From assembly GCA_027449865.1 (NCBI GenBank), contig DAIDKV010000177.1:1-32975 (forward strand): a stretch of DNA of 32,975 bases. Reading direction: 5' to 3'. The position numbers and the translations under genes were made by a program. Source of the stretch: Planctomycetales bacterium (lineage in GTDB: Bacteria > Planctomycetota > Planctomycetia > Isosphaerales > Isosphaeraceae). Below the pieces are notes generated by a model. That model had not been told where the DNA came from, did no database searches, and saw only the letters and a list, made by a program, of their open reading frames with translations. Below, piece by piece: positions 11,439 through 32,975 of the stretch. How positions within the stretch are numbered: the stretch's first letter is position 1; each line of letters opens with the position of its first letter.

Positions 11439-11516
11439 GTAGGAGCCGGCTCCAGCCGGCGATCCACACACCACCTTGCGCTGCGTCCGGTTCGGGGGCT
11501 GGAGCCCCCCTCCTAC
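11439..11516. repeat. REP-like palindromic unit, copy 1
   Basis: The unit has a left arm GTAGGAGCCGGCTCCAGCC (11439-11457), continuing CGG to 11460. Its right arm at 11494-11516 contains GGCTGGAGCC and ends CTCCTAC. The arms are inverted copies of each other around GTAGGAG and GGCTCCAGCC, and each arm is itself partly palindromic. The layout resembles bacterial REP/BIME or short MITE elements. A second unit follows 124 bp later, and the left arm recurs at 32842. Confidence 0.75.
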
Positions 11517-11562: not shown

Positions 11563-11639
11563 GTAGGAGCCGGCTCCAGCCGGCGATCCACACAACACCT
11601 TGCGCGGCGTCCGGTTCGGGGGCTGGAGCACCCTCCTCC
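11563..11639. repeat. REP-like palindromic unit, copy 2
   Basis: This is a direct repeat of the unit at 11439-11516 with a 124-bp period. The left arm is identical; the inner segment differs at a few bases. The right arm is degraded (GAGCACCCTCCTCC instead of GAGCCCCCCTCCTAC). The flanking sequence (GCCAGGTC upstream, AAAAGACC-like downstream) is also duplicated, so a region of about 115-120 bp was copied in tandem. It lies in the convergent gap between the glycosyltransferase gene and ppdK. The rest of 11321-11663 holds no gene. Confidence 0.75.
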
Positions 11640-30853: not shown

Positions 30854-30886
30854 TTTCGTGTCCTCCGTGTTTTTCGTGGTTCCTCC
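30854..30886. repeat. Inverted copy of the repeat core
   Basis: This 33-bp segment is the exact reverse complement of 30687-30719; it begins TTTCGTGTCCTCCGTG. Together they could form a long stem around the heptamer array. It lies 40 bp upstream of the DUF1501 start. The whole 30549-30926 interval contains repeats and no gene. Confidence 0.85.
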
Positions 30887-30926
30887 TAATCCGAGATTCG
30901 ATCCCTTCGTGGTGGGGTACAGGGTC

Positions 30927-32309
30927 ATGCTGGGATGTCCGGAATACCGGCAGGCGGGGGAATGGACGCGGCGTCGGCTGATCCGGGCCGGATTCGCGGG
31001 GATGGCCGGCCTTGCGCTTCCGTCGGTGCTCCGGGCGAATGGGTCGGGCACGCGGCCCCGGGCGCGGAACGTCATCTTCCTGCACCAGTTCGGCGGACCG
31101 TCGCACCTCGATACGTTCGACATGAAGCCCGACGCTCCCTCGGGGATTCGGGGGGAGTTCACGCCGATCGCCTCGGCCCAGCCGGGACTGAGGTTGACCG
31201 AGCACCTGCCCCGGTTCGCGACGGTGCTCCACCATTTCGCGCAGGTCCGGTCGGTTCATCACCGGATGCGGAACCACAACTCGGCGACCTATTACAGCCT
31301 GACCGGCCACGCGCCTCCGCTCGACGACATCCGGCTCCGCGACACCCAGGAGCTTTATCCCGCCTACGGTAGCACCGTGGCGAAGCTTCGGCCGTCGGAC
31401 GACCCGGCGATTCCCTCGTTCCTTTCGTACCCGCACGTTTTGCGCGATGGGAGCGTGACCCCGGGCCAGCATGCCAGCTTTCTTGGCAAGCCGTATGACC
31501 CGTTCTTCATCGGCCAGGATCCCAACGAGGCCGACTTCCGCCTTCCCGAGCTGAGCCTGCCGTCGTCGCTCGGGGCCGATCGGCTCGATGACCGCCGGGG
31601 CCTTCAGCAACTGATCGACCGGCAGGGCGATTTGCTCTCGTGGTCGTCGACGGCGAAGGGGATCGACGCCTTTTACGCGAGGGCGTTGACGATGCTCGCC
31701 AGCCCCCGCGTGCGCGGGGCGTTCGACCTCGCCGATGAGCCGGACCGGCTTCGCGACGAGTACGGCCGGACCACCTACGGTCAGAGCTGCCTGCTGGCTC
31801 GCCGGCTGGTCGAGGCGGGCGTCCGATTCGTGACGGTGTATTATTCGCAGTCGATCGGCGGCAGGGGGAACGGCGGCTGGGACACCCACGGCGACAACTT
31901 CAACCAGCTCCGCGATCGGCTGCTGCCCAACACCGACCGCGCGGTCCCGGCCCTGATCCGCGACCTGCATTCCCGCGGCCTGCTCGACGAAACCTTGATC
32001 GTATGGATGGGCGAATTCGGCCGTTCGCCGAAGGTCACCAACACGAAGCAATTCGGCCCCAACGGCCGCGATCACTGGCCGAATTGCTACACGGTCCTCT
32101 TCGCCGGCGGCGGCATCGTACCGGGTGCCGTTTACGGGTCGAGCGATCGGATTGGGGGCTATCCGTCAACCGATCCGGTCTCGCCCGACGACATCGCCGC
32201 CACGATGTTCTGGGCGCTTGGGATCGACCCGGCCACCGAGGTCACCGATACCCTTGGCCGTCCGCTTCCGATTGCCGCGGGCAAGCCGATCACGGCGATC
32301 TTCGGTTGA
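30927..32309 (+). CDS. DUF1501 protein with twin-arginine signal
   Basis: This 460 aa DUF1501 (alkaline phosphatase-fold, sulfatase-like) protein is typically encoded beside DUF1549/DUF1553 proteins in planctomycetes. It has a twin-arginine signal (TRRRLIRAGFAGMAGLALP, residues 14-32), so Tat export is likely. It then has NVIFLHQFGGPSHLDTFDMK, HNSATYYSLTGHAPP, GGWDTHGDNFNQL, WMGEFGRSPK and GRDHWPNCYTVLFAGGG, all DUF1501 landmarks. Metal-binding type Asp/His residues appear conserved, but no activity is established for the family. The frame extends upstream to a GTG at 30858, but that extension (SSVFFVVPPNPRF) is a translation of the inverted repeat. ATG 30927 is therefore preferred, although its SD is weak. 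The stop lies 6 bp from the convergent small gene. Confidence 0.9.
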   Translation: MLGCPEYRQAGEWTRRRLIRAGFAGMAGLALPSVLRANGSGTRPRARNVIFLHQFGGPSHLDTFDMKPDAPSGIRGEFTPIASAQPGLRLTEHLPRFATVLHHFAQVRSVHHRMRNHNSATYYSLTGHAPPLDDIRLRDTQELYPAYGSTVAKLRPSDDPAIPSFLSYPHVLRDGSVTPGQHASFLGKPYDPFFIGQDPNEADFRLPELSLPSSLGADRLDDRRGLQQLIDRQGDLLSWSSTAKGIDAFYARALTMLASPRVRGAFDLADEPDRLRDEYGRTTYGQSCLLARRLVEAGVRFVTVYYSQSIGGRGNGGWDTHGDNFNQLRDRLLPNTDRAVPALIRDLHSRGLLDETLIVWMGEFGRSPKVTNTKQFGPNGRDHWPNCYTVLFAGGGIVPGAVYGSSDRIGGYPSTDPVSPDDIAATMFWALGIDPATEVTDTLGRPLPIAAGKPITAIFG

Positions 32310-32315
32310 GATTCC

Positions 32316-32594
32316 TTAAGTCCGATCCTCGCGCCCGGGCGTCGGCACCACGGCGAGCCCCGCCTTGTCGAGCCGGCTGAGGATCACCGGCCAGTGCCGG
32401 GCGAGGCTGTGGTCATCCATGGTATGGGTGCAGAGGATCGTCTCGCGGTCCTCTCGCCCAACGACCTTCACGCCCCCGGGCGCCCGGTGCAGGGCCCGTC
32501 GGACGGCATTGACGCTTGGGGCGCGGACGAGGAACCTCCCAGCCGTCACCCCGTCCGGACAAAAGGAGAAATCGACTTGATCCCCGGCGGTCAT
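32316..32594 (-). CDS. Small protein of unknown function
   Basis: I do not recognise this 92 aa protein. It begins MTAGDQVDFSFCPDGVTAG, contains RALHRAPGGVKVVGREDRET and ends RLDKAGLAVVPTPGREDRT. The composition is ordinary for a soluble cytoplasmic protein; there is no signal peptide or membrane segment. The ATG has AAGGA about 12 bases upstream. It converges with the DUF1501 gene (6 bp apart). Its 5' end overlaps the promoter region of the divergent tRNA gene. It has good codon character and clear start and stop, but it could be a chance frame; a homology search would settle it. Confidence 0.55.
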   Translation of the reverse strand: MTAGDQVDFSFCPDGVTAGRFLVRAPSVNAVRRALHRAPGGVKVVGREDRETILCTHTMDDHSLARHWPVILSRLDKAGLAVVPTPGREDRT

Positions 32595-32604
32595 CGTGTA
32601 TTAT
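32577..32604 (+). promoter_or_regulatory. Promoter of tRNA-Glu
   Basis: TTGATC (32577-32582) and TATTAT (32599-32604) are separated by 16 bases. Transcription would start about 10 bases before the tRNA. It overlaps the start codon of the opposite-strand small gene. Confidence 0.55.
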
Positions 32605-32620
32605 TATCCTTGTTCGATTC

Positions 32621-32693
32621 GCCCCCATCGTCTAGCGGCCTAGGATACTTGGTTCTCAGCCAAGGGACCGGGGTTCGAGTCCCCGTGGGGGTG
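32621..32693 (+). tRNA. tRNA-Glu (anticodon CUC)
   Basis: The 73-nt cloverleaf folds cleanly: acceptor GCCCCCA with TGGGGGT (G1.U72 wobble), D arm with GTCTAGCGGCCTAGGAT, anticodon stem CTTGG/CCAAG with loop TTCTCAG (anticodon CTC in DNA), and T arm CGGGG-TTCGAGT-CCCCG. The discriminator base is G73. CCA is not encoded (TTCC follows). Anticodon CUC reads GAG, a codon used heavily in this GC-rich genome. Confidence 0.96.
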
Positions 32694-32710
32694 CTTCCGA
32701 GAGTTTAGTG

Positions 32711-32745
32711 AAGGCCGGGCCTGTGTGCCCGGCCTTTGTGTTTTA
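32711..32745 (+). terminator. Intrinsic terminator of tRNA-Glu
   Basis: AAGGCCGGGC (32711-32720) pairs perfectly with GCCCGGCCTT (32727-32736), with loop CTGTGT, and is followed by TGTGTTTTA. It is 17 bases after the tRNA 3' end. Confidence 0.9.
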
Positions 32746-32747
32746 TT

Positions 32748-32812
32748 ACGTCGGCAAGAAAGTCGGTCAGGCTGGAAAGCCTGACCGACTTGAGCTTCTG
32801 CTTCGCCGGCGT
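32748..32812. repeat. 65-bp hairpin element, copy 1
   Basis: It starts ACGTCGGC and ends GCCGGCGT, which are near-inverted. Inside, AAGTCGGTCAGGCT (32760-32773) and AGCCTGACCGACTT (32778-32791) form a perfect 14-bp stem with loop GGAA. An identical copy is at 32884-32948. Confidence 0.85.
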
Positions 32813-32841
32813 CATAAGCTTCGTCCGGGACTGATATTGTT

Positions 32842-32867
32842 GTAGGAGCCGGCTCCAGCCGGCGATC
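32842..32867. repeat. REP-like left arm, third copy
   Basis: The 26 bp starting GTAGGAGCCGGCTCC are identical to the left arm of the units at 11439 and 11563. The right arm is absent. It lies between the two 65-bp hairpin elements. Confidence 0.8.
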
Positions 32868-32883
32868 GGCGCGCCACTTTCTG

Positions 32884-32948
32884 ACGTCGGCAAGAAAGTC
32901 GGTCAGGCTGGAAAGCCTGACCGACTTGAGCTTCTGCTTCGCCGGCGT
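32884..32948. repeat. 65-bp hairpin element, copy 2
   Basis: Identical over all 65 bases to 32748-32812, in the same orientation, 136 bp later. No gene is seen in 32746-32975. Confidence 0.85.
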
Positions 32949-32975
32949 AGTGATGGAACTCTCGTGAGAATGGAA

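Follow-up and report, generated by a model that had tools for sequence, protein, structure and literature searches.

The two identical 65-bp hairpin repeats found downstream of a tRNA-Glu gene in a member of the Planctomycetales are, as judged from their ends and target sites, copies of a putative non-autonomous MITE of the IS630 type, which inserts at TA. The most likely history is that this MITE entered a TA of a REP array, was doubled together with a REP unit, and that the pair was then moved as a 205-bp composite. The family is apparently new, with a candidate repeat-trapping composite, and the kind of element is one already known. The stretch analysed, referred to as the window, is the whole of contig C177 (32,975 nucleotides) in an 8.48-Mb assembly of 278 contigs (genome G000).

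The two copies, at 32748-32812 and 32884-32948, agree letter for letter and form a direct repeat, 136 bp from start to start. As stated in a preliminary description of the region, each contains a 14-bp perfect stem capped by a GGAA loop, and the ends are near-inverted (ACGTCGGC / GCCGGCGT). The copies are situated after the terminator-like stem of the tRNA-Glu gene and close to the right end of the contig, which stops 27 bp beyond copy 2. The features of the region are as follows:

32317-32318, no strand: empty TA site, at which the related genome G017 holds a 101-bp copy of the MITE family (window versus G017 comparison)
32621-32694, + strand: neighbouring tRNA-Glu (CTC) gene (ARAGORN; Rfam RF00005)
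32708-32739, + strand: stem-loop resembling a terminator, with a T-rich tail, downstream of the tRNA; it belongs to the host sequence and is shared with G017 (G017 alignment)
32744-32745, no strand: TA, the target dinucleotide on the outer left (the empty site of G017 reads TG; G017 comparison)
32746-32814, + strand: MITE copy 1, 69 bp, made up of TT, the 65-bp core 32748-32812 and CA (comparison of filled and empty sites at the sister copy; TA positions)
32760-32791, + strand: hairpin inside copy 1 (14-bp stem, GGAA loop)
32815-32881, + strand: one GTAG-type REP-array unit opened at its internal TA (TAAGCTTCGTCC...CACTT), with the REP core at 32842-32865
32882-32950, + strand: MITE copy 2, 69 bp, made up of TG, the 65-bp core 32884-32948 and AG
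32896-32927, + strand: internal hairpin of copy 2
32951-32952, no strand: right outer target dinucleotide, TG (G017 comparison)

The limits of the element were defined by a sister copy in G017. At the position of the lone TA at 32317-32318 of the window, G017 carries a 97-bp core, 101 bp in all, with TA on both sides (window GGTTGAGATTCCTTAAGTCC versus G017 GGTTGAGATCTCTTA[101 bp]TAAGTCC). This clean duplication of TA indicates that the element consists of the core plus 2 nt at each end, and its proper length is 69 bp in place of the 65 bp first described. A survey of the ends gave 111 end-pair rows, of which 65 were kept on the basis of hairpin words and of limits on length and mismatches, with a few spurious rows remaining (e.g. 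L004, minus strand, and L021); the strict set comprises the 53 of these 65 rows that measure 64-66 or 95-98 bp, L021 being left out. The rows were drawn from the best matches and 60 hand-chosen stretches and cover a subset of the copies; the two members of a composite are non-independent rows, as are L169 and L174 of genome G003, which are identical. Of the 53 strict copies, 31 had TA at the expected offset on the left and 35 had it on the right; 23 had it on both sides, 43 on at least one and 10 on neither, against a mean TA count of 0.73 at 30 control offsets. The TA target-site duplication expected of an IS630-type MITE was thus observed as one exact empty/filled pair and as a TA signature across the family. 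In the window, the inner side of copy 2 reads TC instead of TA, and the outer right dinucleotide is TG. A search of the fetched loci for further orthologous empty sites gave none in addition to the two of the tRNA-Glu locus (matches of at least 80 bp at less than 99.5% identity, the first three per flank).

The element is not unique to this locus. With the 65-mer, 42 matches were obtained in its own genome (E<=0.001; 40 of 50 candidates scored), and a 96-nt two-hairpin consensus gave 60 matches (40 of 65 candidates scored), which were merged by hand to at least 32 places on 26 contigs; this is a lower bound, since only 40 of the 65 candidates were scored, and among the 32 places, those on C24, C214 and C238, which lie at contig ends, may represent a single region. 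A 73-nt query matched 8 of 45 genomes of the family, namely all five of the genus, G003, G014 and, by one weak match, G006. The exact hairpin GTAGGTCAGGCTNNNNAGCCTGACC was present in one of 392 sampled genomes of the phylum, the source genome itself, in a sample with only two genomes of the family; it is therefore no phylum-wide REP. Scanning of genome contigs with one exact pattern returned eight stretches, from the records clean5766, clean381 and an Isosphaeraceae MAG. In keeping with a MITE, the copies are short and without coding capacity (64-66 and 95-98 bp in the strict set), and other sizes seen range from 40 to 133 bp. The insertion hot spot beside tRNA genes that had been suggested was rejected: a tRNA lies within 350 bp in 3 of the 65 rows, which correspond to two loci only (tRNA-Glu and tRNA-Ile). 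A tRNA-Ile gene lies upstream of another 65-bp copy (L003, G000:C32). The window contains the gene of a DUF1501 protein at 30858-32309, upstream of the tRNA-Glu locus.

The family exists in a long and a short form. The 97-bp form has two inverted hairpins between its ends, and the 65-bp form corresponds to it minus 32 bp. The 97-bp consensus possesses the direct repeats GGTCAGGCT and AGCCTGACC, the members of each pair being 32 bp apart, and deletion between either pair yields 65 bp with a loop of GGAA or TTCC. In 22 copies of 64-66 bp the loop was TTCC in ten, GGAA in eight and another sequence in four. The presence of both predicted loops among the short copies suggests that the 65-bp form probably arose more than once from the long form, and the loss of 32 bp would be explained most simply by slippage between the direct repeats inside the hairpins. 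A 40-bp copy (L136) retains the ends and has no hairpin.

The search for a parent yielded seven DDE_3 matches in the genome itself, two of which are halves of a single element of the IS630 type that lies at the beginning of contig C10, with HTH_33 and the first DDE_3 half in one frame and the second half in another. Five end variants of the MITE, drawn from several genomes, have 7, 7, 7, 10 and 13 mismatches in 31 positions to the right terminal inverted repeat (TIR) of this element, which gives the best end match in the genome (24/31); to its left end all five have 9 to 14. Among the DDE_3 loci of this genome only C10 is similar, L141 to L145 having no ends like the MITE. Genome G003 contains a degraded relative of the C10 transposase, 62% identical to it across 125 residues and with two stops, for which one end was found. 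The end of the degraded IS630-type locus L260 of G003 (TATTACCCCGGCACGAAAG) is identical over 19/19 bp to the ends of the G003 MITEs L169 and L174, which are themselves identical and could represent a single element present on two contigs. The best matches of this 19-mer in six further loci of the IS630 type, L141-L145 of the source genome and L261 of G021, have five mismatches or more. It is by way of L260 and the right TIR of C10 that the MITE has terminal inverted repeats in common with IS630 elements. Next to its degraded IS630-like gene, L260 also contains a palindrome of 46 nt without mismatches at 1462-1507 (GGGGTCAGACCGAATTTTTAGTT / AACTAAAAATTCGGTCTGACCCC). Transposases of the C10 type were detected at E<=1e-30 in 3 of 45 genomes of the family (the source genome, G003 and G021); the G021 match (39% identity) had no MITE-like end, and the MITE-bearing genomes G006, G014, G016, G017, G018 and G019 gave no transposase match at that threshold.

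It is very unlikely that the 65-bp elements are instead a second REP or REPIN family moved by a RAYT (IS200/IS605-like), and such an origin was set aside upon the ends and the TA signature. REPs and REPINs are not known to have terminal inverted repeats outside their palindromes or a target duplication, whereas here the inverted ends are conserved outside the hairpins, TA is duplicated, an end is identical to an IS630-type end, and L136 keeps its ends without a hairpin. The two inverted hairpins of the long form are REPIN-like, and the hairpin of many copies starts with GTAG (GTAGGTCAGGCT..AGCCTGAC), which is regarded as a resemblance. No GTAGGTCAGGCT hairpin was found in the flanks, some of them shortened by contig ends, of six Y1_Tnp loci; GTAG with a perfect stem occurs there only at L094 and belongs to the other REP family.

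The segment between the two copies does represent a different repeat family, as the preliminary description had it, but it is a unit of a REP array and not a "left arm". It holds GTAGGAGCCGGCTCCAGCCGGCGA, a GTAG-type REP present at 185 places in the genome (up to two mismatches; 101 forward, 84 reverse), the reversed pattern giving none. The sequence after copy 1 reads TAAGCTTCGTCC...GTAGGAGCC..., and that before copy 2 reads ...GGCGCGCCACTT. Junctions between REPs that are free of the MITE read ...CACTT TA AGCTTCGTCC... (C143) and ...ACCT TA AGCTTCGTCC... (G018:C129), and since these carry TA, the interior is one array unit opened at that dinucleotide. As the flanks show, a MITE was inserted into the TA of a tandemly repeated REP unit. 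REPs are more crowded close to MITEs, with 11 in 10.55 kb up to 150 bp away versus 3 in 67.5 kb beyond 300 bp, a density about 24 times higher in 37 rows that are non-independent, since one REP can be counted from either member of a composite. Two more copies of the GTAG REP occur in the window at 11439-11462 and 11563-11586, 124 bp apart. Among the places listed, a REP is found within the first 50 bases of contigs C7, C60, C83, C114, C146, C153 and C198 of the same genome, which suggests that REP arrays probably break the assembly and are under-counted. At G000:C33:29711-29962 (L094) a Y1_Tnp (RAYT-like) gene has the REP GTAGGAGCCGGCTCC on both sides and is likely the partner of that REP family.

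The tRNA-Glu locus of G017 is 96% identical to that of the window, and downstream of the orthologous tRNA gene G017 has neither the MITE copies nor the REP (G017 CTTT TG ATCG versus window TTT TA[205 bp]TG ATGG). Two copies of the element therefore bound a segment that is wholly absent at the empty site; the trio measures 205 bp and its cargo is one 67-bp REP unit, although tandem units could be collapsed in this fragmented assembly. The same design recurs at two complete loci, G000:C143 and G017:C411, both with the MITEs in direct orientation, and at one partial locus, G017:C834. At C143, five forward REPs and one inverted REP are enclosed by two 65-bp copies, and at C411 one REP unit is enclosed by two 97-bp copies, all four MITE ends having TA at the expected offset. 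In C834, which lies in a REP array, MITE and REP are repeated (144 bp at 95.8%), the first MITE being cut by the contig start with its end alone present. The outer dinucleotides are TA/TA at C143 and at C411 and TA/TG in the window, the empty site of which reads TG; no empty site for C143 or C411 was found among the fetched loci. The inverted ends and TA duplication of the MITE family, the absence of the trio from G017 and the recurring design support the composite mobile unit first proposed.

How the pair was formed can be proposed in outline. Exchange within the REP array, possibly unequal, may have produced the order MITE-REP unit-MITE, of which C834 provides one duplicate; a transposase would then have read the outer ends of the MITE pair as one element, and the 205-bp composite would have been inserted in a single step after the tRNA-Glu terminator. 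Somewhat short of an even chance, we would extend this to a two-step repeat-trapping cycle, in which a MITE enters the TA of a REP, is doubled together with the REP by tandem exchange, and the doubled unit leaves as a composite of about 200 bp. Recent duplication, which had been suggested from the perfect identity of the copies, is plausible for the window pair, but the other pairs have diverged, by 7/65 mismatches at C143 and to 93.8% identity at C411. The C143 copies have GGGGGCAAG in common, which is in no other of the 65 rows, and those of C411 share GGGCTGGCTGG, which is found also in L184. By plain identity, the partner is missing from the five closest neighbours of each C143 copy, and at C411 the pair is tied with the unrelated copy L219. 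Because this test does not favour the other pairs, a local duplication stands out clearly in the window and in the C834 repeat alone, and our confidence in the composite cycle and in the overall reading was lowered accordingly.

The main alternative is that a single MITE was inserted after the tRNA-Glu gene, and that homologous recombination or gene conversion involving a REP array elsewhere that carried MITEs later put the trio in its stead, an ectopic event that would yield an identical product. This course of events is a serious possibility, though on the doubtful side: MITE and REP copies are numerous and alike, MITE-REP units are duplicated in the REP array of G017:C834, and of the three composites that are complete, two contain copies that are not clearly each other's nearest kin. 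The outer boundaries of all three nevertheless lie at MITE target positions and are REP-free outside (no REP palindrome within 150 bp, or within the 27 bp available on the right of the window), which counts against recombination because it is predicted directly by one-step insertion, and no single-MITE intermediate was seen at the tRNA-Glu site.

An assembly artefact at the contig end is a highly improbable source of the twin copies. Copy 2 stops 27 bp short of that end, and several contigs of the same genome begin in REPs. The 27-bp right flank, however, matches G017 sequence downstream of the orthologous tRNA, so that the right boundary is no contig-end chimera; the G017 ortholog has the two outer flanks joined without a break, and like architecture is found inside contigs of two genomes (C143, G017:C411). 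Least credible is a conserved functional RNA or terminator tied to the tRNA operon: the + strand as RNA does give a very stable fold (-42.8 kcal/mol, z -7.05, with 0 of 200 shuffles as stable) and a stem change is compensated (GTAG/CTAC to GTCG/CGAC), but the fold is accounted for by the inverted-repeat structure alone, the orthologous G017 site is without hairpins, the hairpins lie at many unrelated sites and beside a tRNA in two loci only, no terminator-like site was called at them, and the tRNA is the sole Rfam family at gathering score in 32300-32975; this reading was set aside.

The preferred interpretation, an IS630-type MITE paired around a REP unit, has counterparts among known systems. 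MITEs have been reviewed (PMC10969869). RUP is described as about 100 bp long and without genes, its ends resembling those of the resident IS630-Spn1, which is the proposed mover in trans (PMC3049150). The planctomycete MITE is like such elements in its size of about 100 bp, its lack of genes and its ends akin to a resident IS630, and differs from them in its unrelated sequence and host, its two internal inverted hairpins and its recurrent form shorter by 32 bp. NEMIS/Correia and Nezha are also of the IS630 type. NEMIS and Nezha are listed as MITEs, and GTAG repeats are reported in the Planctomycetes/PVC group, in the same source (PMC3733652). The middle unit resembles the GTAG-type REPs and BIMEs with RAYT in that it starts with GTAG, occurs in tandem arrays and has one Y1_Tnp gene among its REPs, a likeness which concerns the cargo and not the 65-bp element. 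REPs are described as transposition hot spots (PMC1525189), and the enrichment of REPs near MITEs recalls the IS elements that target them, although those are autonomous and here a MITE lies at TA between REP palindromes. In TIME-COMPs two MITE copies bound and mobilise a segment (PMC13367494), and the blaPER-1 region is reported between two copies of a 439-bp MITE (PMC3934969). The window trio shares with TIME-COMPs the two MITE copies bounding a segment; TIMEs, however, derive from the Tn3 family and the cited composites carry resistance genes, whereas here the cargo is a 67-bp REP in a total of 205 bp. Among the open-access publications listed, titles and abstract openings revealed none on this MITE family or on MITE-REP-MITE composites, nor any study of MITEs in Planctomycetes.

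The spread of REPs to new sites is attributed mainly to RAYT enzymes. If the composite reading is true, MITE pairs would give REPs a second route of dispersal besides RAYT, and if the cycle is true, one repeat family, the MITE, would disperse RAYT-associated REPs and seed new REP arrays. The trio illustrates, compactly and with its sequence complete, how two non-autonomous elements could give rise to a composite transposon.
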